Source: Promicromonospora citrea
GTDB lineage: Bacteria > Actinomycetota > Actinomycetes > Actinomycetales > Cellulomonadaceae
Reading direction: 5' to 3'
NCBI RefSeq assembly: GCF_013004695.1
Contig: NZ_JABEMG010000034.1
Location: 1 to 37,201, forward strand
DNA: 37,201 nucleotides
Shown: piece after piece, positions 15,308 to 36,972 of the stretch
How the letters are laid out: every line of letters begins with the position of its first letter
Numbering within the stretch: position 1 is the first letter of the stretch
Program-made: the position numbers and the translations under genes
Notes under the pieces: generated by a model
Seen by the model: the letters and a program-made list of their open reading frames with translations, nothing else
Database searches by the model: none
Told to the model about the DNA's origin: nothing

Positions 15308-15712
15308 ATGGCGAAGAAGGACGGCGTGGGCCGGTACGGGGAGCAGGTGGCGCGACGTCACCTGGAGGAGCGCGGCTGGACGGTGCTCGACACCAACTGG
15401 CGTGGCGCGGACGGCGAGCTCGACATCGTCGCGGTCGACGGCGACGTGCTGGTGGTGGTCGAGGTCAAGACCCGCAGCGGCCACGGCTACGGCCATCCCG
15501 CCGAGGCGGTCACGGCGCGCAAGCTCGCCCGGGTCAAGCGGCTGACCGGGCAGTGGCTCACGGCGTTCCGTGAACGGGTCGCCGCCGCGCGGCTCCTGGG
15601 CGAGGGCGCCGACGTGCGGACGGCGTTCGGCGCGATCCGCATCGACGTGGTGGCCGTGACGCTGCCGCGCCGCGGAGCCGCGGTCGTCGAGCACCTCGAG
15701 GCGGTGGCCTGA
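15308..15712 (+). CDS. yraN: YraN/UPF0102 family nuclease-like protein
   Basis: A 134-residue protein of the UPF0102 family, which has a restriction-endonuclease-like fold. I chose ATG 15308 (MAKKDGVGRYGEQVARRHLEERGW) over GTG 15299. The conserved core GADGELDIVAVDGDVLVVVEVKTRS contains the PD-(D/E)XK-like D and E-V-K residues. Its TGA overlaps the comM ATG (TGATG), so it is coupled to comM. A role linked to competence or DNA processing is inferred from its conserved position next to comM and dprA. Confidence 0.92.
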   Translation: MAKKDGVGRYGEQVARRHLEERGWTVLDTNWRGADGELDIVAVDGDVLVVVEVKTRSGHGYGHPAEAVTARKLARVKRLTGQWLTAFRERVAAARLLGEGADVRTAFGAIRIDVVAVTLPRRGAAVVEHLEAVA

Positions 15713-16403
15713 TGGGCGTCGCCACGACCCGCGCGGTGTCGCTCGTCGGGATGCAAGGGCACGTGGTGGAGGTGCAGGCGCACCTCGCCGCCTCGGTGCC
15801 CGGCTTCACGCTCGTCGGGCTGCCGGACACAGCGCTGAGCGAGTCACGTGACCGGGTCCGGGCAGCCGTCGCGTCGACGGGCCTGCCGTGGCCGGTCAAG
15901 AAGATCACGGTCAACCTGACGCCGGCGGCGCTGCGCAAGCAGGGCAGCGCCTACGACCTGGCGATCGCGGTGGCGGTGCTCGCCGGCGCCGACGGGCCGA
16001 CCGGCCCGGGGCTGCGCCGTGAGGGCCTGGGCCGCGTCGTGCACCTCGGGGAGCTCGGCCTGGACGGCCGGGTGCGTCCCGTGCGCGGGGTGCTGCCGTC
16101 GGTCGCCGCGGCCGTCGCGGCGGGCTTTCCGGACGTCGTCGTGGCTGCGGGCGACCTCGAGGAGGCACGGCTCGTCCCGGGTGCCCGCGTCGTCGGCGTG
16201 GCGAGTCTCGCCGAGGTGGTCGCCCTGCACGGAGGCCCGCCCGAGCTCGTGCGCGAGGTGGTCGCCGTCCGGCCGGAGCGGTCGGTGCCCCACGGCCGGA
16301 CGCCGGGCGACCTGGCCGACGTGCTGGGCCAGGACCGGCCGCGGTTCGCGCTCGAGGTAGCGGCGGCAGGCGGCCACCACCTGCTCCTCGTCGGGCCGCC
16401 GGG
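15712..16403 (+). pseudogene. comM: ComM (YifB/Mg-chelatase-like AAA+) fragment 1, N-terminal
   Basis: ComM is a hexameric helicase that extends D-loops during natural transformation. This first fragment encodes the N-terminal Lon-protease-like fold (VGLPDTALSESRDRVRAAV, ITVNLTPAALRKQGSAYDLAIAVAVL) and the linker up to the P-loop. It breaks off at GPPG, halfway through Walker A. Foreign sequence begins at 16404 and gives stop codon TAG at 16414-16416 after four extra residues. The rest of the gene is found at 23363-23627 and 36367-36972. The start overlaps yraN. Joined at the repeats, the three fragments make one 515-residue reading frame. The gene as it stands cannot make active ComM. Confidence 0.93.
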
Positions 16404-16431
16404 TCCCCACCCTTAGAGGAGCAGGTGGTGG
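16374..16431 (+). repeat. Perfect 16-bp inverted repeat across the left junction of island 1
   Basis: CCACCACCTGCTCCTC (16374-16389, within comM) is exactly complementary to 16416-16431 (within the island). The 26-base loop contains the comM/island boundary at 16403/16404 and the stop codon that ends comM fragment 1. A 16-bp match of this kind is not expected by chance. Confidence 0.85.
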
Positions 16432-16444
16432 GGCGCGCTCGCCT

Positions 16445-16450
16445 AGGCTG
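16445..16450 (+). promoter_or_regulatory. Candidate -10 for a leaderless OLD nuclease transcript
   Basis: TAGGCT lies six bases before the GTG start of the OLD-family gene, the spacing expected for leaderless actinobacterial transcripts. No -35 was identified. Confidence 0.3.
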
Positions 16451-16456
16451 GCGATC

Positions 16457-18277
16457 GTGCACATATCCCGTATCGATGTAGAGCGGTTGCTGGGCTTCGA
16501 AGATCTGAGTATCGAGGTCGATCCCCATCTGCAGTTGATCGCAGGCCCGAACAACGCGGGCAAGTCCTCGCTGCTGAGAGTGCTCGAGACCTTCTTCGCG
16601 AATCCAACGGGTGAGGACCTACAGCGGCTCAAGCCCCTTCACGAGTACTACGTGCACGGAGGGCCGCGGATGATGTCCAACATCATCGTGCACTTCGATG
16701 CGTTGACCGAACCCGAGAAGGAGGTCTTCGGCGATGCTGTACTCAAGAACGGGACGTTTTGGATCAAGTTGGCGTGCAGCCGGGCGGGGAAGATCACCTA
16801 CGAAGCGAGTCGGAAGTCGACGCACGCCCGCGAACTCTACGAGCAGGTTCTCCAGTCGTTCAGCTTCGTGAAGATCCCGTCCGTTCGCGTGAGCGAGTCC
16901 GTGCAGGGGGAGAGCGACCAATCTCTGGTGCGGCTATACGAGACGTTGGAGGGCGTCCTGGTCCGCTCGGGTGGGTCACGCAGGACTCAGCTCCAGAAGG
17001 ACTTCGAGGAGGCGATCAAGCCGGTCGAAGCGCTCGTTCACAAGGTGTTGAGTGATTCGGTAGCAGCTGTTGCTACGGAGCTGCCGTTCCGCGAGCGCGA
17101 ACTCGGCATCAACCTGCCCGATTCCAAGCACGCCCTGCGCGGCATGCTCCAGGAGGCGGTCATCACGAGCCGAGACGACGTCGTCGTTTCGATCGCTGAC
17201 CGGGGCACTGGCTTCCAGTCCGCCATGGTGCTGGGAATCCTTCGCTACGTAGCGTCGCGGAGCCAGCAATCCGGCGGGAACGTGGTGTTCGCGATCGAGG
17301 AGCCCGAGGCGTTCTTGCATCCGCAGACGCAGCGCGCGATGGCCAAGATCCTGCGCGAGATCTCCAAGGGGGCGCAGCTGCTCGTGACCACACACAGTCC
17401 GGTACTGGTGGATTCCTTCTCGGTGCGGCGCATCGTTCGACTGCCGCTGTGCACCGGCGGCACGAACTACACCGCACGTAGGCAAGACATGTCCGACGCC
17501 GAAGAGGGAAGGCTCACGCGATACTGCGACGCGACCAACAGCGAGCTGGTCTTCGCGAACTCCGTCGTTCTGGTCGAGGGCTACGGCGACAAACTTCTGA
17601 TCGACTATCTCCTCGGTCGCGCCACCGGGGGCGCGGGCGGCCACTACGCGATGGGAATCGCGGTGATCGAAGCTTCCGGCGTCACTACGATCAAGCACCT
17701 TGTCGGGCTCGCGCAGTACTTCGGAGTGCGTGCATACGTGATCACTGACAAGGACGGTGTGCACAAGGGCGGGGCAAAGGGGCCGCGTCCTCTGGTGGAG
17801 ATCCTGAAGGCCCGGAACCCGCCGCCATCACAGTCGGATATGCAGGCACTGGGCTCCTTGGCGGACACCGAGGTCTCCAGCCTGAAGAGCGCGATCGACC
17901 AGCAAGCAGCTCTGAATCAGAGTCTTGAGCCCTGGGACGCGTTCGTCCTCGCATCCGACCTCGAGGGGCTTCTTCTCGACACGATCGGCCAGAAGAAGCT
18001 TGCACAGATGCTCGGCCCGGCAGGGGAGAGCGAGATCGATCAGGCGACCGCTGACCGATTCGCCACTGGTTCGAGCGGCCGAGAGGAGCTGGCGTCGTGG
18101 CTCGGCTCGAAAGGATGGAACTCGACAGGGAAGAAGACCGGTAAGGCGAAGCCGCACTTGCCGTCCGCGCTGCTGAGGGCTCATCTCGCGAATCGTAAGT
18201 CCGTCCCTCAGGCGGTCAAGCCGTTGGATAACTGGCTTCGCGCGATCGTTGAGGATCACGAGCGTTCCCCGCTCTGA
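16457..18277 (+). CDS. Stand-alone OLD-family ATP-dependent endonuclease (AAA + TOPRIM)
   Basis: A 606-residue OLD-family (overcoming lysogenization defect) nuclease. The N-terminal ABC-type ATPase has Walker A GPNNAGKSSLLR at residues 30-41, a signature-like DRGTGFQSAM, Walker B VVFAIEEPEAFLHP near residue 280, and a switch histidine in VTTHSPVLVD. The C-terminal TOPRIM nuclease has VVLVEGYGDKLLIDYL near residue 370 and ITDKDG near residue 430. The start is GTG 16457, close to the island edge. No UvrD-like partner lies beside it, so it resembles class 1 (stand-alone) OLD proteins; a partner could have been lost when ISs inserted right after it. A phage-defence role is inferred from the family and island location. 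Codon use is less GC-rich than in the backbone. Confidence 0.9.
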   Translation: MHISRIDVERLLGFEDLSIEVDPHLQLIAGPNNAGKSSLLRVLETFFANPTGEDLQRLKPLHEYYVHGGPRMMSNIIVHFDALTEPEKEVFGDAVLKNGTFWIKLACSRAGKITYEASRKSTHARELYEQVLQSFSFVKIPSVRVSESVQGESDQSLVRLYETLEGVLVRSGGSRRTQLQKDFEEAIKPVEALVHKVLSDSVAAVATELPFRERELGINLPDSKHALRGMLQEAVITSRDDVVVSIADRGTGFQSAMVLGILRYVASRSQQSGGNVVFAIEEPEAFLHPQTQRAMAKILREISKGAQLLVTTHSPVLVDSFSVRRIVRLPLCTGGTNYTARRQDMSDAEEGRLTRYCDATNSELVFANSVVLVEGYGDKLLIDYLLGRATGGAGGHYAMGIAVIEASGVTTIKHLVGLAQYFGVRAYVITDKDGVHKGGAKGPRPLVEILKARNPPPSQSDMQALGSLADTEVSSLKSAIDQQAALNQSLEPWDAFVLASDLEGLLLDTIGQKKLAQMLGPAGESEIDQATADRFATGSSGREELASWLGSKGWNSTGKKTGKAKPHLPSALLRAHLANRKSVPQAVKPLDNWLRAIVEDHERSPL

Positions 18278-18290
18278 ACCGATTGGCTTA

Positions 18291-18304
18291 GGCCGTGTTG
18301 CTAG
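18291..18304 (+). repeat. IS-end-like sequence abutting the IS5-like element
   Basis: GGCCGTGTTGCTAG at 18291-18304 matches the left end of the adjacent IS (GGCTGTGTTGCTAA, 18304-18317) at 12 of 14 positions, in the same orientation. The IS therefore sits immediately next to, or in, a sequence like its own terminus. The last four bases are the CTAG target duplication. Confidence 0.7.
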
Positions 18305-18338
18305 GCTGTGTTGCTAAACCCGTTTCGGTGTCGCGCGG

Positions 18339-19233
18339 GTGAGTCTGAATGTCGTGTCGCGTGATGTGATCTCGGATGAGGCGTGGGCTGTGATCGGGCC
18401 GTTGTTCCCGAGGGTGAAGGCCACGGGCAGGCCGCCTATTGACCGTCGCACGGTGGTCGAGGCGACGGCATGGCGGTTCCGCACGGGCGCGCCGTGGAGG
18501 GACGTACCCGAACGGTTTGGGAACTGGAACACGATCTACAAGAACTTCAACCGGTGGTCGAATGCTGGGGTTTGGGCGCGGGTGCTGGAGAAGACGCAGT
18601 CACTCGCGCAAGAGACCGGTGATCTGGACTGGGTCGCGTCGATCGACTCCGCGATCGTGCGGGTGCATCAGCACGGTGCGACTCTGCCGCGCACCACGGG
18701 GGGCCCTGTCGAATTACAGGAAGTTCGGGCCGGAACCGCCTGACCACGCGATCGGCCGATCGAGAGGCGGCCTGACAACCAAGAGCCATCTCGTCTGCGA
18801 CGGGAAGGGCCGTGTGCTCGCGTTCATCCTCACCCCTGGTCAAGCTGCGGACACGACCATGATGGCCACGACGCTGGAGCAGATCCGGGTGCCCGGCGGC
18901 CGAGGTCGTCCACGGGTTCGGCCGGAGCGGGTGATGGCTGACAAGGGCTACCCATCAAAAGCGAACCGGGCGTGGTTGCGTGAGCGCGGAATCGCGGCGA
19001 CCATTCCCGAACGAAACGACCAGATCGCGCATCGCCTCAAGCGCCAGGGCCGGCCGATCGACTTCGGCGACGTGCAGCGTCTCCGCTACCGCGGCCGCAA
19101 CGTCGTCGAGCGGTGCTTCAACATGCTCAAGCAGTGGCGCGGGATCGCGATGCGCTCAGACAAGACCGCCCGCAACTACCACGCCGGGCTCTGCCTCGCC
19201 GCCACCCTCCACTGGGTCAGCACCACACGCTAA
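18339..19233 (+). CDS. IS5-family transposase, two overlapping frames
   Basis: Frame 1 (18339-18743) encodes the N-terminal part, ISDEAWAVIGPLFP and the DUF4096-like region TGRPPIDRRTVVEATAWRFRTGAPWRDVPERFGNW, up to the first catalytic Asp in SIDSAIVRVHQHG. Frame 2, ending at 19233, supplies DHAIGRSRGGLTTK, the second Asp in MADKGYPS and the Glu in VERCFNMLKQWRGIAMR. The frames change near a run of six G at 18698-18703, the type of slippery site used in several IS5 subgroups; the coordinates require a net +1 (or -2) shift. It could equally be a simple frameshift mutation. With the shift made, the DDE triad is complete. Confidence 0.85.
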
Positions 19234-19339
19234 AGCTCGTGGGCCATACTCGCGGCTCTCTACGCCCCTCGGGTAGGGGGGCGTGGAGGCCGACCTGTTG
19301 TCGCGTGATGCGGGGTTCGCTCAGCCTTAGGATCGGATC

Positions 19340-20200
19340 ATGCCGTCCGTCTTCTCCGTGGGCCGCCCGTCAGGCCGGTCGTTGACTGGTCTCGTCCATG
19401 GTCCGGCGGACGGGACACCGATCCTGTTCATCGCCGGGGCGGGAACCGGCAAGTCCATGGTATTCGGTGAGCATTTGCTTGATACCCGCGGGATCCGGCT
19501 GATCACGATGGATCGTCCCGGCATGGGTGGCTCGGACCCCGATCCCACCCGCACCCCCGCGTCCACAGCAGACGACTATCGCGCGTTCGTCGCCGCCGTG
19601 CTGGGCGTGACCAACCCCAACGTTCCCGTTGTTGCGAACTCGCAGGGCGCAGTGTTCGGTCTAGCCGTGGCCGCCCAGGGGTGGGCCCAGACTCTTGTTC
19701 TGGTCTCACCAGCAGATGAAGTAGCCGACCCGTCAGTGCGCGCGCTGCTTCCCGAGACTGCGCGCGCTCTCCCCGATCTCGCGCAGAGCGCACCGGACGC
19801 CGCTCGGGACCTCCTGCGGTCCTTCACACCGCGTGCCATGCGCGACATGGTCCTGGATGGCTCCGACGCGCAGGACCGTGCCGTCTACACCGCACCTGCC
19901 TTCGACGCCCTCTACCAAACCGCTCTCGCGGAGGGCTTCGCGGGAGACGGCAGCGGGTACGTCGCCGACACAATGATGGCAAGCACACGCTGGCCCATCA
20001 ATTTCGCCACGATCACAACCCCTGTCACCGTGCTCTTCGGAGCCCACGACCAAGTGCACTCCCCTGATCACGGCGCGATCCTCACAACCCGCCTCCCAAA
20101 CGCTCAACGAACCGTTGTAAGCAACGCCGGCGGTGCACTCCTCTGGACCCACTCCGACCTCGTGTTCAACGCAGCACTCCAGCACCCAGAAATGCTTTAG
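19340..20200 (+). CDS. Alpha/beta-hydrolase passenger gene of the IS
   Basis: A 286-residue alpha/beta-hydrolase-fold protein. The oxyanion region FIAGAGTGKSM is followed by DRPGMGGSDP, the nucleophile elbow VVANSQGAVFG (Ser near residue 100), an acidic residue in LFGAHDQVHSPDH and a histidine in LLWTHSDLVF. The substrate is unknown; the fold covers esterases, epoxide hydrolases and dehalogenases. It lies between the transposase and the right inverted repeat of the same IS, 106 bp after the transposase, and reads in the same direction. Its TAG stop was preserved by the later TTA insertion, because both the old and new downstream sequences begin with G. Confidence 0.8.
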   Translation: MPSVFSVGRPSGRSLTGLVHGPADGTPILFIAGAGTGKSMVFGEHLLDTRGIRLITMDRPGMGGSDPDPTRTPASTADDYRAFVAAVLGVTNPNVPVVANSQGAVFGLAVAAQGWAQTLVLVSPADEVADPSVRALLPETARALPDLAQSAPDAARDLLRSFTPRAMRDMVLDGSDAQDRAVYTAPAFDALYQTALAEGFAGDGSGYVADTMMASTRWPINFATITTPVTVLFGAHDQVHSPDHGAILTTRLPNAQRTVVSNAGGALLWTHSDLVFNAALQHPEML

Positions 20201-20228
20201 AGCTCGCGCGGATAGGACGGCGTATGGA

Positions 20229-21067
20229 TCAGGGGCACCGGGCAGGACGAGAGTCCCACCGGTAGCGCTTCCAGGACTGCCGGACCAGGCGGCGGATGAT
20301 GATGATCGCGCTGGCCAGCGCCACCCAGGCGTTCTGCACGCACCCTTGCCGGTCGGTCACCCTCGCCAGCGCCGAGAACCCTCTGTTGTGCCATGAGTTG
20401 GTCCGCTCGACGACCCATCGACGAGTGTGGTTGATAGGCAGGAATACCCCCTTGGGAGTGATGTTCGGGGTGCAGCCCAGCTCGGAGAGAAGATCCCGGG
20501 TCCGAGCCGAGTCATAGCCCGCATCCAGGTGAACCGTGATGACCTCAGGAAGCCTGAATCCGACCACGGCGAGGGTCTCTAGCGTCGGACGCAGGAGCGG
20601 AGAGTCGTTCCTGTTGGCCCCGGCCAGCACCCATCCGATCGGTATCCCGCCGCCGTCCACGAGCACCGATCTCTTGAGACCCAATTTGCCGCGGTCGACA
20701 GGGCTGCGGCCGGTGTTCTCTCCTCCGCACGGTGCCTTGACGATGCATCCGTCGACCACGAGGTTGTCCAGGTCGAGGCCGACAGCCTGGTCGTAGGCTT
20801 CCAGCGCCAGGTGGTGGAGCCGCTCGACACGCCGGCACGGATCCACTCGTCCCGGCGGGCTCGCATCGTGGTCGCCGAGCAGGTCTCATCGGCGTGCTGC
20901 TGGTAGGTACCTCCCAGGACGAGGCGGGCCAGAAGCTTGTCAAAGACGACCCGGTCTGGGATGCGCGGGCGGTGACACCCCAAAGGGTGGTTGATGTTGC
21001 GTTCGGGCAGCAGGGCTCGGAACTGTTCCCACAGAGGGTCGGCGATGAAGCCGGGCAGGACGGGCAC
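20229..21067 (-). pseudogene. IS5-type transposase, frameshifted
   Basis: The N-terminal frame (21067 down to about 20830) starts at a GTG and reads MPVLPGFIADPLWEQFRALLPE to RRDEWIRAGV. The C-terminal frame continues with ERLHHLALEAYDQAVGLDLDNLVVDGCIVKAPCGG, then HLDAGYDSARTRDLL and WVVERTNSWHNRGF, which hold the DDE residues. The shift lies in a GTGT dinucleotide repeat (ACAC on the + strand, 20827-20830). Losing one GT would give an uninterrupted frame, so a recent dinucleotide duplication is the simplest explanation; programmed frameshifting is the alternative. The C-terminus ends 30 bp inside the left inverted repeat. Confidence 0.82.
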
Positions 21068-21153
21068 GTGGTCTTGTGATCGTCGTCGTCGAGAAGAAGG
21101 GCGGGGCCGCCGCGCCGTACCCGTCCGGGCGCGGTGCGGCGGCCCCGGTCCTG

Positions 21154-22575
21154 CTACCCGACCTGCGGCTGCCCCGCCGCGGTGGACGGCGAGCGGGAGA
21201 TGACCACGGCACCGACGACCAGCCCGATAACGGCGAGCACCGCAGCGACCACGAACGGGTCCCCGGAGTGCAGGGCCGGTGCGAACCCGAGGCCGACGTA
21301 GACGGCCACCCCGGCTGCTCCGCCGAGCTGGTCAGATGCTCGCTGGACGCCGGAGGCGATCCCGGCGTCCTCCTCGGTGGTGCCGCTGACTGCGATGTAC
21401 TGCAGACCCACGAGCCCGAAGCCCATGCCCGCTGCGATCAGTAGCATCGCCGGGAGCAGCCACACCGCTCCACCATCCAGGACGGCCACGAGCGCGACCA
21501 CGCCCATCGCGCCGGCAGCCGCTGCCAGGCCGACCAGCACGCAGGCGCGTGCGCCCCAGTGTCCCAGCAGCCGAGGCACGAGCACCGAGGCCACGATCAG
21601 CGCCACGGCCAGGGGCAGCATCGTCAGGCCTGCCCCCAGAGGCCCGATACCGAGCCTGTCCTGCAGGTAGAACGTGAACAGCAGGAACGAGGTCGACAAC
21701 GCACCGCTGAGCAGCATCGTCGTCAGGTTCGCCCGCAGCCGGGCCCGATCGGCGAAGAAGGTCAGCGGGACCAGCGGGTTCGGCGACCTCGACTCGACCC
21801 GCACGAACCCGGCAGCAGCCAGCACCGCGCACACCAGCGCGACCCCGCTGACCCACAGGCCGGTGGCAGGCTCGCCCGCCTCGACCGCGGCGTAGACGAA
21901 CAGCAGCGGGCACGCGGTCAGCAGGAGCGAACCGGGAAGGTCCAAGCGGCACCGTCCCCCGGACGCGGGCCGGTCGGCCGGTACCAGGAGCAGCGCGGCC
22001 ACGATCACGACCAGGATGAAGGGCACCGAGACCAGGAAGACCCAGCGCCAGCCCAGGTGGGCGGTGATGATCCCTGACAGGGCGAACCCGAGAACCAGGC
22101 CGCAGCTGGCCACGGCCGCCCACACGCTCAGGGCCCGTGAGCGGCGCGGCCCCTCGGGGAAGAGCAGCACGATGGTCGCCATCGCCGCGGGCAGCGCGAC
22201 AGCCTCGCCCGCGCCCTGGAGCAGGCGGGCCGCGACCAGGACCGGAAAGGACGGGGCCAGGCCAGCCAGCAGGGAGGCCGCGCCGAAGACGCTCGTGCCG
22301 ACCAGGAGGGTGCGGCGGCGGCCGAGAAGGTCACCGAGCCGACCGCCGAGCATCAGCAGCCCTCCGCCGGTGATGGTGTAGCCGACCACGACCCAGGTCA
22401 GGGAGTGTCCCCCGACGCCGAGGTCCGCGCCGATCGAGGGCAGCGCGATGTTGACCACGGTCACGTCGACCGCGATGAAGAACTGCAGCATCGACATCGC
22501 GCACAGCACGAGCCATGCGCGCACAGGGGCGGGACCGATCCCGCATGAAGTGGTGGAAGTGCCTGAAAGCATCAA
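21154..22575 (-). CDS. MFS drug-efflux transporter, DHA2-like (IS passenger)
   Basis: A 473-residue integral membrane protein with about fourteen hydrophobic segments, as in the DHA2 (14-TM) drug:H+ antiporters. Family landmarks are the N-terminal VDVTVVNIALPSIGADLG, the motif A loop GRLGDLLGRRRTLL, and the motif C-like GLVLGFALSGIITAHLGWRWVFLV. It is complete, and the C-terminus TAAGQPQVG is short. Substrate cannot be predicted. It follows the regulatory palindrome at 22675-22701 and ends 87 bp before the transposase start on the same strand. It lies within the IS inverted repeats, so it can move with the element. Confidence 0.9.
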   Translation of the reverse strand: MMLSGTSTTSCGIGPAPVRAWLVLCAMSMLQFFIAVDVTVVNIALPSIGADLGVGGHSLTWVVVGYTITGGGLLMLGGRLGDLLGRRRTLLVGTSVFGAASLLAGLAPSFPVLVAARLLQGAGEAVALPAAMATIVLLFPEGPRRSRALSVWAAVASCGLVLGFALSGIITAHLGWRWVFLVSVPFILVVIVAALLLVPADRPASGGRCRLDLPGSLLLTACPLLFVYAAVEAGEPATGLWVSGVALVCAVLAAAGFVRVESRSPNPLVPLTFFADRARLRANLTTMLLSGALSTSFLLFTFYLQDRLGIGPLGAGLTMLPLAVALIVASVLVPRLLGHWGARACVLVGLAAAAGAMGVVALVAVLDGGAVWLLPAMLLIAAGMGFGLVGLQYIAVSGTTEEDAGIASGVQRASDQLGGAAGVAVYVGLGFAPALHSGDPFVVAAVLAVIGLVVGAVVISRSPSTAAGQPQVG

Positions 22576-22674
22576 TTGCTCCGTCGCTCTGAAGAGTTTC
22601 CGAGCAGCACGAAGGGCCGCTCCGGTCTGATCACGAAGCGGCTGGACGTTCCAGGTGAGGTGTTGCTGTGTGCC

Positions 22675-22701
22675 GGACGTCCCGCCGCTAGCGGGACGTC
22701 C
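22675..22701. promoter_or_regulatory. Perfect 11-bp inverted repeat upstream of the MFS gene
   Basis: GGACGTCCCGC (22675-22685) and its complement (22691-22701) flank the loop CGCTA. It lies 100 bp upstream of the MFS start. It could be an operator for an unlinked regulator or a leader hairpin or attenuator. No regulator gene lies within the element. Confidence 0.6.
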
Positions 22702-22808
22702 TGGTCACTGCCGCGCAAGCGGCCGAGCTCGAAGCGCCTGACATGGTACAGATGCTAGCAGCGGGGAATATTCGCCCCCGGACCTGTCCCTCCTATCCGC
22801 GCGAGCTC

Positions 22809-23081
22809 TTAGCAACACGCCCTAGTCGCACGATCTTCAGGAGGCTCGCCGCGATGCTGATCGAGTACACGCCGGGCTTCTTCTTGCATCCCGCCCTGTG
22901 AGAGTGCCAGCGCTGCTGCGGCAGCTGCGCCGGCATCACGCGCTACGTTCGGGATCGGGCGTACGGCAACGGCCCTTTGTGCGGCGGCTCTGATGCCGCA
23001 GATGCAATCCGCCTCGCCCCAGCCCCCGGTGTGCGTCGGGTCGTGTGCGGCGCATCGGATCTTCCTCGTATATGAGGACAT
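22809..23081 (-). CDS. Small hypothetical protein, last codons replaced by IS insertion
   Basis: A 90-codon ORF starting at ATG 23081. It has a Cys/His-containing N-terminal part (IRCAAHDPTHTGGWGEADCICG) that could bind a metal, then an Ala-rich helix and LSQGGMQEEARRVLDQHRG. I recognise no family. Its last four codons and stop lie in the IS terminus. Without the IS, the frame would have ended SNTA at a TAA at 18288-18290, also 90 codons, leaving it convergent with the OLD gene. So it is probably still nearly intact. There is no clear ribosome-binding site. The remaining 281 bp to comM fragment 2 show no convincing gene. Confidence 0.45.
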   Translation of the reverse strand: MSSYTRKIRCAAHDPTHTGGWGEADCICGIRAAAQRAVAVRPIPNVARDAGAAAAAALALSQGGMQEEARRVLDQHRGEPPEDRATRACC

Positions 23082-23321
23082 GCGCGCAACGTTACCGGAA
23101 GCGATGACTACCGATAATGCGAGGTTTCCGGTCTCCGCCCTTGGCTGGAGGCGGAGCCGCCTCAGATCAGTTCTGCGCGCACGTGGGTGTGAGGTTCACG
23201 GGCAGCGTCAAGCCTGACGACGAGCGGGACCCCGCGGTCTCTTTAACGATCGGCCGCGCGGCGCGGTTGCTTGTTTACGAGTCGATTATGCTGTTCTGAC
23301 ACGACCTATTGACGAGCGTGC

Positions 23322-23327: not shown

Positions 23328-23362
23328 CGCATGGGGACCTGTGTAGCAAACGCGTATGCATT

Positions 23363-23627: not shown

Positions 23628-23639
23628 GAGAAATCGCAA

Positions 23640-29118: not shown

Positions 29119-31025
29119 TCCCGTCCCCTCAGGAGTGGCGACCGAACGGCATTCAGGACCTCGAACCGGCCGCGTGGGAGGCCCTGCGAGCCGGAACGGC
29201 CTCAGTAACGGCGGGCCCCGGTGCTGGGAAGTCAGAGTTCTTGGCGCAGCGGGCCGGCTACCTTCTCGAGACGGGTATCTGCCGCCCGCCGCAGCAGATC
29301 CTGGCTATCTCCTTTAAGCGTGCCGCTGCCACGAACTTGCGAGACCGTGTCAAACAACGCCTTCCCGAATACGCTCACCGGTTCACCTCGATGACCTTCG
29401 ACGCCTTCACCAAGTCTATCGTGGACCGGTTCCGCGGACTGCTGCCGAGTGAATGGACACTGGGAGCCGGCTACAAGATCGCATTCTCGACTAAGAGAGA
29501 AGTCGAGGGCTTCCTTGCAGACGTCGCCGGTGGACTGGACCAGGAATCGGCGCAAGCCGTATACGCTCTCTCGGCGGACACGTTTCTCCCCAATGTCCTG
29601 GGCGCAACTGAACTCTCGGCGGTCCCCTCCGAACAGCCGGCTCCGACCTCAGCGAGCGAGTTCGCCGTTCAGGAGTGGTGGAACCGCAATTACCTGCACG
29701 CTGAAGCACCAGTGGTCGACTTCGTGATGTTGAACCGGCTTGCCGATCTGATCATTCGGACCAGCCCTCAACTACAACGAGCCCTGCGCGCCACCTATCC
29801 ATTCGTCTTCGTCGATGAGTTCCAGGACACCACCTACGCCCAGTACTCGTTTCTCAAGACTGTCTTTGCTCACGAAGGAACGACCGTGACCGCCGTCGGC
29901 GACCGCAAGCAACGGATCATGGGCTGGGCCGGGGCGCTGGGCGACGCGTTCGCTCAGTTCGAGGCCGATTTCGCAGCCGAACCGTTTGCCTTTACCTCGA
30001 ATTTCCGCTCCACCCAACAGCTGGTCGACCTCCAGCATCGCTTCGCGATCCGGCTCGACCCAGACTCCCCACCGCAACGCTCGCGAGTCGAGCCACCGGT
30101 TGGCGAGACCCCTGTTGCGGTCTGGTCGTTCCCTACTGCCGAGCGCGAAGCTGATGCCATCGCGGCATGGATCGCCACCGACATGGAGGGGACGGGCCGG
30201 CAGCCATCCGATTACGCATTGATCGCCAGGCAGAAGGTGGTCGAGCTGGAACCTGACCTGACCAGGGCACTGTCCGCTGCCGGCTTGCGGCTGCGCAATG
30301 ATGATGCGCAGGTTGGCGACATCAGACTGCAGGACCTGCTTACCGATGACCTGGTGCGGCTTCTGCTGGGCATCCTCGCTCTAGCAGTCAACAGGGGCGG
30401 GCAGCCTCAGATCTGGCGTGAGGTCACCTCACTCTTGTCGCGCGTGTCCCCAGGAGCGAGCGTTAGGGAAGTGGGGACACAGGTCGAAGACGATCTCACC
30501 GACTACCTCCAGGACCTTCGCAGGTGGCTGGCCGCGACGCCCCTCGACGACAACTCGGGTATCGACCTCAGCGAGGAGATTGCGGCATCCCTGACCAACC
30601 AACTGACGGACTTCGTTCGTGTAGAGGCGGCGGGACACAAACGCCTGTTCGGGGACAGGCCCGAGGACCTCACGGTGACCCTTGAGGCGTTCCGGACTCG
30701 GCTTGCCCAGACACTTCTACGCGTTGATTCGTGGAGTGAGGTGGCCGGTGTCTTCTTCGATGAGGACGCGGTTCCTCTCTTAACCGTCCATCGGAGCAAG
30801 GGGCTGGAGTACCACACGGTGTTCTTCATTGGGCTCGACAGCGACCAATGGTGGGCACACGCACGGAACACCCTCGAGTCCACGATGACATTCTTCGTCG
30901 GAGTCTCCCGAGCAGCTGAACGCTTGATCTTCACCCAATGCGACCAACGAGGCGCACCGGCGCCGCTCGGAGAGCTCTATCAAGACCTACGGGACGCAGG
31001 AGTACCGCTAGTCCGTTTCGACTAG
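29115..31025 (+). CDS. GajB-like UvrD/PcrA-type helicase
   Basis: A 636-residue superfamily 1A helicase. Motif I is AGPGAGKS (residues 33-40), motif Ia LAISFKRAAATNLRDRV, motif II VDEFQDT near residue 234, motif III AVGDRKQRIMGWAGA, motif IV SNFRSTQQLVDL, motif V LTVHRSKGLEYHTVFFIG near residue 556 and motif VI FVGVSRAAERLIFTQC near residue 595. The start overlaps the GajA-like stop by four bases (ATGA). In Gabija, GajB activates or partners GajA, so this pair is classed as Gabija-like. It is longer than the original GajB (about 494 residues). Confidence 0.9.
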   Translation: MIPSPQEWRPNGIQDLEPAAWEALRAGTASVTAGPGAGKSEFLAQRAGYLLETGICRPPQQILAISFKRAAATNLRDRVKQRLPEYAHRFTSMTFDAFTKSIVDRFRGLLPSEWTLGAGYKIAFSTKREVEGFLADVAGGLDQESAQAVYALSADTFLPNVLGATELSAVPSEQPAPTSASEFAVQEWWNRNYLHAEAPVVDFVMLNRLADLIIRTSPQLQRALRATYPFVFVDEFQDTTYAQYSFLKTVFAHEGTTVTAVGDRKQRIMGWAGALGDAFAQFEADFAAEPFAFTSNFRSTQQLVDLQHRFAIRLDPDSPPQRSRVEPPVGETPVAVWSFPTAEREADAIAAWIATDMEGTGRQPSDYALIARQKVVELEPDLTRALSAAGLRLRNDDAQVGDIRLQDLLTDDLVRLLLGILALAVNRGGQPQIWREVTSLLSRVSPGASVREVGTQVEDDLTDYLQDLRRWLAATPLDDNSGIDLSEEIAASLTNQLTDFVRVEAAGHKRLFGDRPEDLTVTLEAFRTRLAQTLLRVDSWSEVAGVFFDEDAVPLLTVHRSKGLEYHTVFFIGLDSDQWWAHARNTLESTMTFFVGVSRAAERLIFTQCDQRGAPAPLGELYQDLRDAGVPLVRFD

Positions 31026-31386
31026 CCCAAAAGGGGCGCTGATGCGCGGAAAATCACAGCCGCACCACCCGGCATTGCCGGATCGGCTGTCTGGGCCAAG
31101 GAGGTACGGGCTTGGGCGTCAGCGCGGTAGTCCGTGCCGTGCCCGATGAGCGATGTTCACCCGGCCACCTCTCCCAGATTGGTAGCACGGCTGCGGCTGC
31201 GGTGAAACCGTTGCGCGATGACGCCTGAACGAGGGCTGGTCTCTGACAGAACTGAGCTGATCAGCGTCATCACGACCACAGTCGCTGTGCGGCCCCGATC
31301 CCAGCGGCCACTGTGGTCATGCAGACCACAGCTGTGTGGGTACCGCGAAGCCGCCGAAGACTCCGTGCCCCGTCTAAGGAGGGACG
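31026..31386 (+). promoter_or_regulatory. Intergenic region with repeated GACCACAG sites
   Basis: These 361 bp hold no convincing gene. GACCACAG occurs at 31274-31281 and 31324-31331, and its complement CTGTGGTC at 31311-31318. Three 8-bp sites in alternating orientation within 58 bp, 56 bp before the next ATG, look like operator or repressor sites for the following gene. AAGGAGGG just before the ATG (31378-31384) is a strong ribosome-binding site. Confidence 0.4.
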
Positions 31387-34300
31387 ATGTCGTTTCTGGT
31401 TGACCGGCAGGACATCCTTGACTGGTCCGGAGAGGTGCGCGCTGGCTACGACCTCCCACGCCTCCTACGAAGTCTGATCTCGAACGACAACGGGTCGATC
31501 AGCCGGCTCGATATGCCGGCGAGCGAGGGCGCTCGCCTCCCGGGCTTCGACGGCGAAGTCGAAGCGTCGGAGCCGTCAACCCTAGTTCCCGCTGGACACT
31601 CGGTATGGGAACTAGGGGTGGAGGCTAGGCCGGCGTCCAAAGCGACGCGGGACTACAAGAAGCGGACCAAGGATCCCGGTTCAGTCGTGCCGGCCGAGAC
31701 GACGTTCATCGTGGTGACATCCCGGTCATGGCCGCGGCGGGCCAGGTGGGCTGCTGAGAAGCGAGCGGAGGGCGTCTGGCAGGACGTCAGGGCGTATGAC
31801 GTCGAGGATCTGTCAGCGGCGCTGGACCGCGACACTCCGTCTGCGATCCTGTTCCGCGATCTTGCCAACCGGCGCGGAAGCGGGGCGACGACTCTGGGGC
31901 ACTGGTGGGGCAGCTACCGCAACATGTTCACCGTTCCGCTCGCGCCCGAGCTTGTGCTTGTTGGACGGACCAGCCAGAAGTCGCAACTTGAGGGTTGGTT
32001 GGCCGGCGACGACCGGACGATCGACGTGCGAGCTCAGAGCTTCGAAGATGGACAGGCATTCATCGCGTCTGTGCTTGACGACGCAACCGATCCAACGCCC
32101 AACATGGTTGTATGCGACGAGGTAGGGACTGCGCGCGACCTTCTTGCGCGGTCTCGTCAACCGCTCGTGCTTGTCACGACGATCGATCTGGCGGAACTGC
32201 CTCCCCTCGGGGTCCACCGTGCGATCAAGATCAACGCTTCCGGTCGGAGCGCTGTCGAGCTGCCGCGTCAGAGCACGCGTGAGCTCACGGAGCTGCTCAG
32301 GGCCGGAGGCGTCGAGCATCACGACGCTGATCGTTACGGCGCAGCAGCCCGCAGGAGCCTGTATCGCTACCGGCTCGTCTGCAACCGGGCGACGCATCCC
32401 CTGTGGGGTGAAGAGTTCCGAGACCGCCGGTTCAGGCAGCTTTGGCTGCTTGGTGGCTGGAAACGGGGCGACACTGAGCTTGAGGCCTTGCTGCATTCCG
32501 CTTTCGGGATGAGTGTCGATGACGCAGTAGAGCGGGTGAGTCGCGACGTGAATTCGGCTGACCCGATCTTCTCGCACGTGGGAGACGTGTGGCGTGCTAC
32601 CGCACCGCTTGACTCCGCGCGCTACTTCGTCGAGCGCTCGGACCTCGTGCCCGGTGATCTCGATGCATTCCGCCCCTTGGCGCTATCGGTGCTTGGCGAA
32701 CTCGACCCGGCGCTGGAACTCCCGGCGGGGGAGCGGTGGCTCGCGCAGATCAAGAGGAAGACACGCCGCTATGGCGGCCGGATTCGCAGGAGCGTGGCGA
32801 CGACGCTCACCGTCCTAGCGTCCGAGTGCGGAGCGGCGCCGTTGCGTGACGGCCTCACCATCCAGACCTGGACCGACCAGCTGGTTCGAGAGCTGCTCGA
32901 GGGCTGGGACGACGTGCCGTCCAGGTGGGCATCGCTTCACGACGTGCTGACGCTCCTCGTCGAGGCCGCCCCGGGCATCGTCCTCGACCGCATACGTCGG
33001 GACTTGCTCGGAAGCCGCGAGAACCTTCAATCCCTGTCCACGCCGGAGCAGTCACCGTTCAACTTCGGCGGATCATCCCACCTGACAGCGATCCTGTGGT
33101 CACTTCAATCGCTCATGTGGTCGCCCGAGCATTGCGAGCGCGCGCTGGACACAGCACGCGATCTGGCACGGGGAAGCGACGAGGGCAGGAACAGCCCGAC
33201 TGCGATCGGGATCTTCCGGGATGCGCTGTTGCCGGCCATACCGCAGTGCGTGCTTGGCACGTCCGGGCGAGTCGCCGTGATCGAGCGATGCGTCCGCGAC
33301 GCGCCTGACGTGGCTGAGCGGATCATTGCGAAGACCATTACCGAGACGCACACCTTCGCCACCATCCATCAAACGCACTTCCGCCCCTGGACCGAGGACA
33401 AGCAGCGAGTAACGTGGGCGGACATCTTCGAGGTCTACACGGCGATGATCAGTGGAGCGATCACGCTGGCGGACCAGTATCCGGACCTTTGGGTCACGCT
33501 GGTCGATGCCGCCGACAACGTCGGCGCCCGCGGGTTCGACCAGATCATCGCGGCGCTGGCGGCATTGCCTGTGGGCCACGCCAAAGGAACGCCGGTCTGG
33601 CAGGCGGTGCAGAACCAACTTCGGAGGCACCGGAAGTTCCGGGACGCAGACTGGGCACTGCCCGACGCCTACCTTGAGCGGCTGGAGGCAGCTGTTGAGC
33701 ACTTGAGGCCGGCACTTGCGCGAGAGCGCGAGGAGTGGCTCTTCGGTGACAACAGATTCGATCTTGGCCTCGCCTCGGACGACATCCGCGGGGAAGACTC
33801 GCTGCTCGTGCGGATGCAGTCTTCGGCCGTGCATGAGATTCACGCGGAGGAAGGGTTTGAAGGGCTCTTTGAGCTGGCACGAGCTCACCCGCACGGTGCA
33901 TGGGGGATCGGCGCCGCCCTCGCACGAGGCGACCAGGTGCTCGATCCGGCCATGATTGCGGAGTTGCTGAAGTCGGAGGAACCGGGATTTGGCAACCTCG
34001 CCCGCGGCTACCTCGTCAACTCCGCCCTGGAGGGCAAGACAGATGTTCTCGAGCTGGCTGAGTCATCGTCCGATGACCCCCGAGTGCAGGCGCGGTTGCT
34101 CTTAACGCACCCCGACCCGGCGCAGGCATGGGACTGCGCCGAACGTCTGGGGAAGCCGGTGGCGGAGGCGTTCTGGGCCGAGTACGGGGTCTTTGGCCAC
34201 GGAGCGGACTCTCCTCACGCCGCAACGGCAATCCGGAAGCTGTTGGACCATGGGCGGGTCGCGACGGCGCTCGACGCGATTACGCTCTACCGCGAGGCGA

Positions 34301-35106
34301 TTCCGGCCGACCGCCGCACAGCGTTCATTCTTGAGGGTCTACTGCAACTCGTCAGACAGCCGCCCTCGGAGAGGGCTGGTCTGCCGTCGATGCATGAGAC
34401 AAGGGAGTTCATTGCAATCGTTCGGAGGGACCCGTCCGTCGATCGTGCAATTGTCTGTCAACTGGAGTGGGCGTTCTTTCCCTTGCTTGAGTTTGACGGC
34501 AACGAACCCCTGGCAATCGAGGTTGCGGCCTCGACGTCGGCCGAAGACTTCGTGCACCTAGTCAACCTTGCTTACAGGCCAAAGTCGGTCGCGAAGGAAG
34601 ACCACGTCTTCGACAAGGAACAGGCAGACGTTGCGTTCCGCATCCTTCACCGAATGCGTTATGCACCTGGACTCGATGGAGAGGCGGTCGACACCGCGGC
34701 ACTCGCGACCTGGATCGCGGATGTGGGGTCGTTGGCGACGGCGTCGGATCGCTTCGAGACCGCCATGCATGCAGTTGGTGCCGTCCTAGGTCGGTATAGG
34801 ACGGGCGAAGGCGAGCCCTACCCACATCCGGCCATCGCTACTGCACTGGAGGAGTCCGTCGGCGAGGAGATGCTCATCGGGTTCAGCACCTCTGTCTTCA
34901 ACGGGCGCGGTGTGACCTGGCGCGGACACGGTGGACAGCAGGAATATGACCTAGCCGAGAAGTACGAGGCGATCAGTCGCGAACTGCGCGATGTGGCGCC
35001 CCGCACGAGTGAGACGTTCGGCCAGCTTGCGCGCGGATACCGCAGGGACGGTGCCCGTGAGGACGAGCGCGAGCGGAGAATCGAGGATGGCGTCGACCCC
35101 TGGTAG
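31387..35106 (+). CDS. Large 1239-residue protein, possible nuclease-like N-terminus, putative defence effector
   Basis: The N-terminal 130 residues contain LPGFDGEVEASEPS, VPAGHSVWELGVEARPASKATRDYKKRT and ETTFIVVTSRSWPRR. This arrangement (Asp55, Glu75, Lys85) resembles the PD-(D/E)XK nuclease core in a family of large uncharacterised proteins, recalled from memory; the usual E-x-K spacing is not kept. The segment near residues 190-300 (LVLVGRTSQKSQLEGWLAG, later QPLVLVTTIDLAELP) looks like a P-loop-type fold, but no Walker A Gly-Lys-Ser/Thr is visible. The remaining 900 residues are helical and repeat-like (for example PHGAWGIGAALARGD, DDPRVQARLLLTHPDPAQAW), suggesting an alpha-solenoid sensor. 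The strong AAGGAGGG site fixes the start. It sits downstream of the Gabija-like pair with its own upstream region. Confidence 0.8.
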   Translation: MSFLVDRQDILDWSGEVRAGYDLPRLLRSLISNDNGSISRLDMPASEGARLPGFDGEVEASEPSTLVPAGHSVWELGVEARPASKATRDYKKRTKDPGSVVPAETTFIVVTSRSWPRRARWAAEKRAEGVWQDVRAYDVEDLSAALDRDTPSAILFRDLANRRGSGATTLGHWWGSYRNMFTVPLAPELVLVGRTSQKSQLEGWLAGDDRTIDVRAQSFEDGQAFIASVLDDATDPTPNMVVCDEVGTARDLLARSRQPLVLVTTIDLAELPPLGVHRAIKINASGRSAVELPRQSTRELTELLRAGGVEHHDADRYGAAARRSLYRYRLVCNRATHPLWGEEFRDRRFRQLWLLGGWKRGDTELEALLHSAFGMSVDDAVERVSRDVNSADPIFSHVGDVWRATAPLDSARYFVERSDLVPGDLDAFRPLALSVLGELDPALELPAGERWLAQIKRKTRRYGGRIRRSVATTLTVLASECGAAPLRDGLTIQTWTDQLVRELLEGWDDVPSRWASLHDVLTLLVEAAPGIVLDRIRRDLLGSRENLQSLSTPEQSPFNFGGSSHLTAILWSLQSLMWSPEHCERALDTARDLARGSDEGRNSPTAIGIFRDALLPAIPQCVLGTSGRVAVIERCVRDAPDVAERIIAKTITETHTFATIHQTHFRPWTEDKQRVTWADIFEVYTAMISGAITLADQYPDLWVTLVDAADNVGARGFDQIIAALAALPVGHAKGTPVWQAVQNQLRRHRKFRDADWALPDAYLERLEAAVEHLRPALAREREEWLFGDNRFDLGLASDDIRGEDSLLVRMQSSAVHEIHAEEGFEGLFELARAHPHGAWGIGAALARGDQVLDPAMIAELLKSEEPGFGNLARGYLVNSALEGKTDVLELAESSSDDPRVQARLLLTHPDPAQAWDCAERLGKPVAEAFWAEYGVFGHGADSPHAATAIRKLLDHGRVATALDAITLYREAIPADRRTAFILEGLLQLVRQPPSERAGLPSMHETREFIAIVRRDPSVDRAIVCQLEWAFFPLLEFDGNEPLAIEVAASTSAEDFVHLVNLAYRPKSVAKEDHVFDKEQADVAFRILHRMRYAPGLDGEAVDTAALATWIADVGSLATASDRFETAMHAVGAVLGRYRTGEGEPYPHPAIATALEESVGEEMLIGFSTSVFNGRGVTWRGHGGQQEYDLAEKYEAISRELRDVAPRTSETFGQLARGYRRDGAREDERERRIEDGVDPW

Positions 35107-35371
35107 CAGGGTCGACGACGGCCGAAAGTGGGATGCGCCGGTTCTCGGAGGAGTCGGATGAAGTAGCAGATTTGATCTCGTGCCGTCTTGCCGCTAGACC
35201 GCAGAGCGGTGACCAGGAGGGCGCCAACAGGCCCAGCCTGTCCGTCGCTGCGGTACTCGAGTGGCAGCGGCCTCCAGCACGAGGCCCGCCAACTGGGACT
35301 GCTGTACGGATAGGTGACGGCGGACGCGTGGGGCCGATTGTCGTCCCTGGTGTCCCACTGGCTGGGGCAGG

Positions 35372-36052
35372 TCAGTCGGTGGAAACCTCCCCCTCGATGA
35401 GGTCCATCTGCGTCTGCGTCACGAACGGCACCGTGGACTCGGTGGGCGTCGTGACGCTCAAATACACGTCGTCGGGGTCTTCGACCGCGAAGGTCTCGAT
35501 CCAAGTCGCGCTGCGGCCTGCAGGAACGAACGCCGGGGACTCCTGGTCGCCCTCGGAATTGGACAGGTACTCGCCCTCGGACTCGCCGGAGAAGGCGGTG
35601 TAGCCCATCGAGCCGGTCGCTGCCTCGGTATTCAGAGTGTTTTCCACGGTGACCTCCACCGTGATGCCCTTCAGGTCGGGATCGACGGTGCCCTCCCACT
35701 CGGGGAATAGGTTCTTGGGCTCTGGCTCATCCACCGTGACGATGATGCCGTAGGTGTCCACGCTCTGGCCGAACAGCGCCGCTAGGGACGGGTCCTTCGC
35801 GAAGTTGAGTGGCTTGTCCGAGTCTGTCTCGGCGGTCTCCTTGGACTCGGCCGCCGGGACGTCCTCGGCCGGTGCCTCCGAGTCGACCTCGGCTGGCTCT
35901 GACGCTCCGGCCGACGCGGATGTTTCGGATGCTGCGCTCTTGGCGTCATCCCCTGTGGACCTGCTGCAAGCCCCGAGGGCACCGACCAGAACCAGGGACG
36001 CGACCGCGAGCGCGACGCGTCGATTCCGTTGCCCGTGCTTCAGCCGCTTCAT
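35372..36052 (-). CDS. Secreted lipoprotein, possibly DUF4352-like
   Basis: A 226-residue protein. The signal peptide MKRLKHGQRNRRVALAVAS then LVLVGALGAC ends in the lipobox LGAC (Cys near residue 29). A Ser/Ala/Glu/Asp-rich linker spans about residues 30-85. The folded domain (TYGIIVTVDEPEPKNLFPEWEG, GITVEVTVENTLNTEAATGS, FVPAGRSATWIETFAVEDP) has the pattern of immunoglobulin-like DUF4352 domains; this assignment is tentative. It is convergent with the 1239-residue gene, and the 265 bp between them show no gene. Confidence 0.78.
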   Translation of the reverse strand: MKRLKHGQRNRRVALAVASLVLVGALGACSRSTGDDAKSAASETSASAGASEPAEVDSEAPAEDVPAAESKETAETDSDKPLNFAKDPSLAALFGQSVDTYGIIVTVDEPEPKNLFPEWEGTVDPDLKGITVEVTVENTLNTEAATGSMGYTAFSGESEGEYLSNSEGDQESPAFVPAGRSATWIETFAVEDPDDVYLSVTTPTESTVPFVTQTQMDLIEGEVSTD

Positions 36053-36291
36053 GAACCCATCGTGAACCGGGCTGTGGCACGGCGCGAACGGGGGCGGAGC
36101 AGGCGGCCGACGAGGTCGATCCGGAGGTCTGAGGGCACCTCAGATGGGGCTGATGCACCGACAGGTGGCACCGGATGTGTGGATCGGCGTGTCGTCGATG
36201 CGGTGGTGGGGGACAGACGACTCGGTTGGGTAGACCCGAGCGTTGTCGGTGTACCGCGTGCTTCGGTCCCGGTCGCTGGCGACGTGGCGGG
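36053..36291. other. Gene-free island right-end region
   Basis: Between the lipoprotein start and the end repeat I see no supported gene. Both-strand reading frames here are Arg/Pro-rich shadows. The stretch probably holds the lipoprotein promoter (- strand), though no clear hexamers were found. Confidence 0.5.
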
Positions 36292-36355
36292 CTCTGGCCT
36301 GCGGTTCCGCGTGTGCGACGCTAGGATCAGTGACGATCCAGCAGGGTGTGCTTTC
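36292..36355 (+). repeat. Island end repeat, comM-proximal copy (A)
   Basis: The counterpart of 26244-26307 (53/64 identical). It includes TAGGAT at 36322-36327, a -10-like box directed toward comM fragment 3, and the inverted pair GGATC/GATCC (36324-36339). Against GAATC/GATTC in the other copy, one base pair has changed with its partner. GTG at 36346 gives a short open frame into comM fragment 3. The comM core GAGGCGC begins 12 bp after the repeat. Confidence 0.8.
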
Positions 36356-36366
36356 CATTGGGCGCT

Positions 36367-36972
36367 GAGGCGCCCGAGTTCCGGTCGGACGTGCTCGAGA
36401 CGCTGCGCCAGCCGCTGGAGCTCGGCGAGCTCGTGCTGCACCGCACCGGCGGCGCGGCGCGCTACCCCGCGCGGTTCCAGCTCGTCCTCGCCGCCAACCC
36501 CTGCCCGTGCGGCATGGCGGTCGGGAAGGGGCTGGAGTGCAGCTGCTCGCCGACCGTCCGCCGCCGGTACCTCGCGCGGTTGTCCGGACCGCTCCTCGAC
36601 CGGGTCGACGTGCAGGTCGAGGTCGAGCGCGTCGAGCGGGTCGATCGCTTCGAGGGCACCTCCGAGTCGACGGCCGACGTGGCGGCCCGGGTGCTGGCAG
36701 CACGCGAGGCCGCGCGCGGTCGGCTGACCGACACGCCCTGGTCGACGAACGCCGAGATGCCCGGTCGCTTCCTGCGTGAGCTGCTGCGGCCCCGCCGGTC
36801 GCTGTTCGGGCCCATCGAGAGGGCGATGACGGCGGGCACGCTCAGCCTGCGCGGCGTCGACCGCGTGCTGCGCATGGCCTGGACCGTCGCGGACCTCGCG
36901 GGCCGTGACGCGCCGACCAAGGGCGACGTGGGCAACGCCCTCCTCCTGCGCACGCGAGGCGACCATGGGTGA
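36367..36972 (+). pseudogene. comM: ComM fragment 3, Walker B to C-terminus
   Basis: This fragment starts EAPEFRSDVLETLRQPLELGEL, continuing the DEAPEF Walker B region, and runs through FQLVLAANPCPCGM, the Cys-rich CSCSPTVRRRYLARLSGPLLDR, and the C-terminal helical domain with LSLRGVDRVLRMAWTVADLAG. It is in frame with fragments 1 and 2. The codon count after removing both islands is 516 including the stop, the usual ComM length. The frame extends upstream to GTG 36346, in the island end repeat, so a truncated protein could in principle be made. Its TGA overlaps dprA. Confidence 0.93.

Follow-up and report, generated by a model that had tools for sequence, protein, structure and literature searches.

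In other bacteria, comM helps to integrate taken-up DNA, and the AbaR islands of Acinetobacter interrupt this gene by Tn7-like transposition, with no large serine recombinase (LSR) known to take part. A different known arrangement is that of integrons and integrase-less attC clusters, i.e., rows of small units with one type of site each and often no recombinase nearby. According to the parts of Durrant 2022 (PMC10083194) considered here, magnesium chelatase/ComM homologues are the targets of 12.4% of the predicted site-specific LSRs, so that the targeting of comM by LSRs is known from earlier work, and competence genes are enriched among LSR targets; the targets are not enriched within or near anti-phage genes, which gives a general link to defense no support. 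In this study, we closely examined a 37,201-nucleotide stretch of Promicromonospora citrea (contig NZ_JABEMG010000034.1, positions 1 to 37,201; here called the window), in which two inserts split comM, one at the Walker A motif (insert 1) and one at the Walker B motif (insert 2). Our preferred reading, with a probability of roughly 0.77, is that comM holds two LSR target sites, that insert 2 is a row of cassettes lacking a recombinase, and that insert 1 is probably a related element.

The original prediction, made from the letters of the window, had comM cut at Walker A and Walker B and left undamaged once both inserts are removed. The pieces were found where it placed them (Table 1), and joining them gives 692 + 257 + 599 = 1548 nt, i.e., 515 codons plus stop with the frame unchanged. 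The joined protein aligned without gaps to its counterparts in 12/12 other genomes of the genus at 85 to 92% identity (closest match, L017, 92.2%); the alignment covers all 515 residues in ten of them, 514 in one, and residues 198 to 514 in L013, which has masked bases. In all 12, comM is unsplit, with a whole Mg_chelatase domain, so that both sites are empty in close relatives, a check that the prediction had proposed. The PF01078 profile gave five matches in the source genome (99.97% complete), namely the three comM pieces and two weak matches elsewhere; no comM besides the three pieces was found with this profile, and the gene is presumably inactive in the source strain. Inteins and introns were considered for cuts at nucleotide-binding motifs and dropped, the inserts being multi-gene and 7 and 12.7 kb long.

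The predicted 8- and 7-bp repeats at the edges of the inserts are real, with CCGCCGGG flanking insert 1 and GAGGCGC at both edges of insert 2 (23621 and 36367). Since each of these words is present 15 times in the window, both strands counted, the repeats alone are weak evidence. Their abundance would suit an illegitimate capture of DNA fragments in break repair, with the frame kept by chance, as would a 16-bp stretch at the left edge of insert 1 that repeats comM in inverted orientation; for insert 2, however, the ranks of its half-sites and the presence of the junction word in 14 genomes (both described below) speak against such a capture. We regard it as improbable overall, although insert 1 may have arisen in this way. 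The exact restoration of comM, together with matching junctions in other genomes, makes a mis-assembly unlikely.

Furthermore, we surveyed 493 relatives, comprising 220 family members and 273 further genomes of the order, for splits of comM. Splits were picked from the best E-value of each genome and the counts are therefore lower bounds; a Walker A split could be missed in groups where whole comM already scores near 1e-75. Not counted as insertions were G167, with adjacent halves, and G214, G215, G235, G306, G377, and G422, with contig ends or overlapping halves, nor were 12 genomes without a match at 1e-8 (4/221 and 8/297). At least nine relatives carry a Walker B split (G113, G156, G159, G158, G170, G350, G370, G275, and G476) and at least one a Walker A split (G253). 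An LSR lies beside a junction in eight of these ten genomes, as found by Pfam in G113, G156, and G159 and by tblastn or reading frame in G253, G275, G350, G370, and G476; in G158 and G170, tblastn detected no LSR in the stretch examined. Both Walker B junctions were read in seven relatives, and in 7/7 the left and right copies have the GA of GAG in common; insert 2 likewise enters at this GA, as expected of entry at an LSR core dinucleotide. Because LSR elements of relatives enter the same codons, both cuts in comM are LSR entry points, and the site-specific integration proposed at two codons, with other elements at the same places, is supported. Besides insert 1, the Walker A site was seen occupied only in G253, by an LSR element (L066).

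Tn7-like or Tni transposons are known to target comM, as in the AbaR islands, and could in principle have split the gene here. However, no Tni/Tns-type gene was present among the window open reading frames (ORFs) scanned (20 with Pfam and 9 with NCBIfam), terminal inverted repeats were not seen by eye at the insert ends, and it is LSRs that relatives carry at the same codons, which makes transposition of this type very improbable.

The junction word GGTGTRCTTTCCATN8GARGCNCCNGA was found in 14 named genomes from genera including Leucobacter, Brevibacterium, Actinotalea, Arthrobacter, Humibacter, and Tessaracoccus, and 12 of them have a Walker B split in comM. An LSR of the L068 type (≥71% identity) is encoded in 10/14, one copy being truncated, and all ten lie at most 50 nt from, or overlap, the left half of comM. 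Among the remaining four genomes, G500 has an LSR relative of 52% identity, and none was found at 1e-10 in G499, G503, and G504. This set overlaps with the survey above, as G370/G496 and G275/G505 are probably the same genomes. A second LSR type, 50 to 52% identical to the first, was observed near the right ends of comM islands (L097, L094, L093, L099, and L100).

The borders of insert 2 were scored with matrices built from sites of other genomes, with the window left out; the right-half matrix excludes three internal sites whose right halves differ (L090, L093 8863, and L094). The left-half matrix ranked position 36345 first in the window with a score of 35.9 (next, 9.7; top of 20 local shuffles, 14.3), and the right-half matrix ranked 23621 first with 21.5 (next, 15.5; top of 20 shuffles, 17.2). 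With a matrix for center and right half, the core at 23621 was again first (21.2), followed by a core at 31041 (14.0) and a third position at -0.5. In a control with the same matrix, uninterrupted comM sequence running on at the right junction scored -10.4, so that the left border of insert 2 does not owe its rank to comM bases. The pattern of the right end occurs once in the window versus 0.02 expected, and its arm (GGTGTGCTTTCCATTGGGCGCT-GA), at the same spacing, also ends the LSR elements L069, L071, and L073. Both ends of insert 2 carry attachment (att) half-sites that match an LSR family. Inside the insert, 64 nt at 26297, including a -10-like element and an arm, are an 83% copy of its right end. 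The sites of the window are degenerate, except for 36345; the decayed site at 31041 and the partial one at 26297 suggest three cassettes, one with a Gabija system. Mini-ORFs at the right ends (36333 and 26282) were considered as leader peptides and dropped, as conservation in other sites was not apparent by eye.

A site of ~48 bp, of which both halves correspond to the ends of insert 2, separates tandem cassettes in Nesterenkonia muleiensis, Tessaracoccus antarcticus, Arthrobacter sp. 260, and a Microbacteriaceae metagenome-assembled genome. In N. muleiensis (G503) and T. antarcticus (G504), comM is intact and the site lies elsewhere; N. muleiensis has six sites in one orientation within 10.3 kb, one of them with a 1-nt shift. 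Internal sites are also present in Arthrobacter sp. 260, G507, G502, G170, and G604, and G170, from the same family as P. citrea, shows a similar leaderless left junction plus an inner site. Following the core GA, leaders that bear an LSR (L068, L070, and L072) read GTCGTGCAATGGAAAGTGCACC or close to it, and most cassettes read approximately GGCWCGCGAGATCRCAANNRCACC. A third half-site type, TGCGAAACAAAGCGCTACA, forms the left comM junction of L097 and lies inside L094, with a similar one inside L093; these loci all carry the second LSR type. In 20 chosen loci plus the window, TANNNT starts 17 to 27 nt upstream of the arm at 26/28 distinct sites versus 2.4% of random positions, which suggests a promoter-like element, and cassette genes occur in both orientations with respect to this -10-like element and the site. 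The site pattern was found in 2/394 genomes of the class, one being the source genome, and is thus rare in that sample. In G604, from another family of the class, two cassette-like sites lie 1.85 kb apart (L103, 2393 and 4248), one with three mismatches and the pair apparently outside comM.

Comparison of cassettes between genomes revealed a 333-bp cassette end, 99.1% identical, that abuts comM in one metagenome-assembled genome (G506, L101) and a further cassette in a second (G507, L093), with identity ending ~4 nt past the core at the site. Also, Arthrobacter sp. 260 and G507 have a type I restriction-modification operon in common (6.5 kb, 83.9%). Both cases are compatible with an exchange of cassettes, without proving it.

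No LSR or recognizable remnant was detected in the window by tblastn with eight LSRs from comM elements. The best values were 0.37 inside insert 1 and 0.54 inside insert 2, none reaching 1e-3, and the one lower value (0.004, at 23400) reflects comM sequence included in the overlong frame of LSR056. By these queries, neither insert has an LSR gene of its own, and excision or movement would therefore need an enzyme acting in trans. In the source genome, PF07508 gave one match over the cut-off, on the 4.4-kb contig C140 (L064); this LSR was set aside as a candidate recombinase, as it adjoins a tRNA-like 3' end (by eye) and the contig ends at 4.4 kb. Searches for a source of the insert yielded no viral contig by site pattern, no plasmid by site at 0.1 or by LSR at 1e-50, and one phage match by LSR, at 25.9% (limit, 1e-20), so that no source was obtained.

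Two ordinary self-integrating LSR islands that later lost their recombinase genes, with tandem sites elsewhere arising from repeated insertions, would also explain why LSR elements recur at the same comM codons, and would agree with the insertion-sequence damage in insert 1 and with comM being a known LSR target in the parts of PMC10083194 considered. However, the left end of insert 2 is a cassette-type half-site and not of the leader type GTCGTGCAATGGAAAGTGCACC, an internal site divides the insert, and the eight LSR queries revealed no LSR remnant in the window. We consider this explanation unlikely, if worth keeping in view.

Under the preferred reading of insert 2 as a cassette row, comM would offer one LSR target site in its Walker A codons and one in its Walker B codons, and insert 2 would have come in at the GA dinucleotide of the Walker B codon GAG, in the form of a single circular cassette or several. 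Every cassette would carry one ~48-bp site composed of an arm GGTGTRCTTTCCAT, an 8-bp spacer, the core GA, and an arm ending in CACC. Its cassette-type half at the left border leaves two routes. Either an LSR supplied in trans would join the site of a mobile cassette to comM at GA, or a leader bearing an LSR would enter first and later be excised through recombination of its left end with the first inner site, an order of events that would produce the same junction as direct entry. Of the original prediction, site-specific entry is supported; reversibility in the manner of comK prophages is not supported as stated, with no recombinase or remnant in the window by the eight queries, and integration into comM was known before. 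The prediction did not cover the cassette structure or the defense cargo.

Several observations weigh against the cassette reading. Under leave-one-out scoring, real sites reach 30 to 55 compared with 21.2 for 23621 and 14.0 for 31041, and the latter value was attained by one of 40 shuffles with the center and right matrix (best, 14.6). The boundary at 26297 was missed by the matrices (rank 647 for the left half and rank 61219 for center and right); only one arm and the -10-like element are recognizable there, and the spacing to the comM-like GAGGAGCCCGAG is 6 nt too long. The source genome has no LSR of the insert 2 family. Of the shared segments, the 333-bp match does not end at a site on its far side, and the restriction-modification homology reaches no site at either end. 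Finally, the arms of insert 1 had no match among the other elements examined, and L066, the sole Walker A LSR element found, has arms unlike those of insert 1.

To describe the content of cassettes in other genomes, ten proteins were chosen from L088, L089, L091, L092, and L093, mainly from larger ORFs and as single genes, so that they represent neither a census of cassettes nor of complete systems. PADLOC matches (≤1e-5) were obtained for 7/10, with the names NsnA, JAB, E1-E2, IetS, HamB, LmuB, and, weakly, PDC-S65 (2.9e-6); the remaining three (one DUF6119 protein, one DUF4062 protein, and one of 220 aa) were without a PADLOC match at 1e-5. Pfam adds HsdM/HsdR, GmrSD_N, and SIR2 in cassettes and an ABC-three-component protein in G170. 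Cassettes with reductase-like or unnamed ORFs also occur. The JAB plus E1/E2-like cassette of T. antarcticus (L089, 4824 to 9191, reverse strand) resembles operons of the cyclic oligonucleotide-based antiphage signaling system (CBASS) and ubiquitin-like defense operons.

Insert 2 probably consists of three cassettes, one with a HEAT protein, one with Gabija, and one with a 1239-aa protein, with two decayed inner sites (Table 1). The genes for GajA (OLD nuclease) and GajB (UvrD-like helicase) are adjacent, as in Gabija systems, and overlap. The 273-aa ORF shows 53% identity to an ORF at 1861 to 2646 of L054, near the left end of the G113 element (residues 4 to 238 versus 24 to 259, 9.5e-84); since the alignment begins at residue 24 of the L054 protein, the ORF seems to be without its start, i.e., its first ~20 residues. 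The 1239-aa protein of the third cassette is a candidate new defense protein.

The right end of insert 1 follows the same plan as that of insert 2, with TAAAAT, then GTGTAGCAAAC, and then the target, and CCGCC is common to insert 1 and the L066 element at Walker A. Without its insertion-sequence part, insert 1 would approximate a one-gene cassette. We hold an LSR origin of insert 1 to be fairly likely; it is probably a defense element broadly comparable to insert 2 that depends on an LSR of different specificity and was later entered by insertion sequences. Its region from 18294 to 22832 contains inverted repeats and two IS4/5-family transposases around the hydrolase and the LmrA-like MFS transporter. 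The inverted comM copy at the left edge is perfect over its 16 bp (16374 to 16389 versus 16416 to 16431) and could form a hairpin across the junction.

Table 1. Features of comM and its two inserts, with positions in the 37,201-nucleotide window
Feature	Position	Strand	Remarks
comM piece 1, ChlI domain to Walker A GPPG	15712..16403	+	692 nt
8-bp repeat CCGCCGGG, left copy, insert 1	16396..16403	+	
Insert 1, at Walker A	16404..23362		Same codons entered by LSR element in G253/L066
OLD-family nuclease (AAA_15 + OLD TOPRIM), GajA/Old-like	16457..18277	+	Pfam 2.4e-30, 3.8e-12; PADLOC GajA 9e-36, Old 2e-30
IS4/5-family transposase pieces, two overlapping frames	18339..19233	+	Pfam DUF4096 1.2e-27, DDE_Tnp_1 4.9e-19
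Alpha/beta hydrolase	19340..20200	+	Pfam 8e-12
Second IS4/5-family transposase, two frames	20229..21067	-	Pfam 2.1e-13, 3.7e-9
MFS efflux-type transporter, LmrA-like	21154..22575	-	Pfam MFS_1 8.8e-50; NCBIfam 458.8 bits, under cut-off 850
Insert 1 right end, outward -10-like TAAAAT + GTGTAGCAAAC arm	23322..23362	+	From sequence; putative function
8-bp repeat CCGCCGGG, right copy, insert 1	23363..23370	+	
comM piece 2, Walker A GKT to Walker B DEA	23371..23627	+	257 nt
Left junction of insert 2, core GA + cassette right half-site GGCGCGAGAAATCGCAATCACACG	23621..23646	+	
Insert 2, at Walker B, probably three cassettes	23628..36366		No recombinase found
HEAT/LRV-repeat protein, cassette 1	24057..25529	-	Pfam LRV 4e-11
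134-aa ORF, cassette 1	25781..26185	+	No match over cut-off (Pfam, PADLOC, NCBIfam)
Partial decayed cassette boundary	26244..26320	+	-10 TAGAAT at 26274; arm GGTGTGCTTTC at 26297
273-aa ORF	26298..27119	+	No family match (Pfam, PADLOC, NCBIfam)
Gabija GajA	27112..29118	+	PADLOC 9.2e-219
Gabija GajB	29115..31025	+	PADLOC 2.9e-186
Decayed internal cassette site, core GA at 31041	31019..31066	+	Between GajB and 1239-aa gene
1239-aa protein	31387..35106	+	No Pfam/NCBIfam/PADLOC match; PDB matches at chance level only
226-aa ORF, lipoprotein-like by eye	35372..36052	-	No match (Pfam, PADLOC, NCBIfam)
Right junction of insert 2	36322..36368	+	-10-like TAGGAT 36322; left half-site GGTGTGCTTTCCATTGGGCGCT 36345; core GA 36367
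comM piece 3, Walker B to C-terminal domain	36374..36972	+	599 nt; shares GAGGCGC at 36367

If the preferred reading is true, such cassettes would provide actinobacteria with a route for gathering and exchanging defense systems as single units, and the gain of defense would be tied to the loss of comM. A direct test is feasible, as site, target, and candidate recombinases are specified here, and new site-specific LSRs with defined sites would be of practical use. In searches of open-licence full texts, none of the titles or abstract openings listed described serine-recombinase cassette arrays, defense cassettes, comM islands, or cassette chromosomes of this kind in these genera.

Among known systems, AbaR islands interrupt comM as the inserts do here; they differ in that they move by Tn7-like transposition and are not known to involve an LSR. 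A broader and tentative view, which we place just short of even odds, is that actinobacteria possess a serine-recombinase counterpart of the integron, in which rows of anti-phage cassettes in the Walker B codons of comM and elsewhere would be shuffled by LSRs, the row of the window having lost its leader. Each cassette would be small and recombinase-less, with one ~48-bp site and a promoter-like element, and LSRs of separate leader elements would move cassettes between genera. Integrons differ in using a tyrosine recombinase instead of a serine recombinase, and the genes here stand in either orientation to the site; Pfam scans of 20 window ORFs revealed no tyrosine-recombinase domain, and no search for IntI was made.

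The known systems that come nearest in how they work are the staphylococcal and enterococcal cassette chromosomes (SCC and ECC). In the parts of PMC6222049 considered, these resemble the cassettes described here in their LSRs, fixed gene target, ~50-bp att sites with inverted repeats, and an att-flanked remnant; they differ in the sequence of the site and in their target, rlmH instead of comM, and the cassettes here have a promoter-like -10 element by the site and form small defense-cassette rows without a recombinase. The inserts are not members of SCC or ECC by target gene and recombinase genes, as the insertion lies in comM and not in the 3' part of rlmH, and no LSR was found in the window with the eight LSR queries, which did not include Ccr proteins. 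The LSR elements at ComM covered in PMC10083194 have the same target gene as the inserts of the window, and the parts of that report considered contain no mention of recombinase-less tandem defense cassettes or of two occupied sites in one comM. With its cassette-type half-sites and the rows of defense cassettes to which they correspond, insert 2 goes beyond the published targeting of comM.

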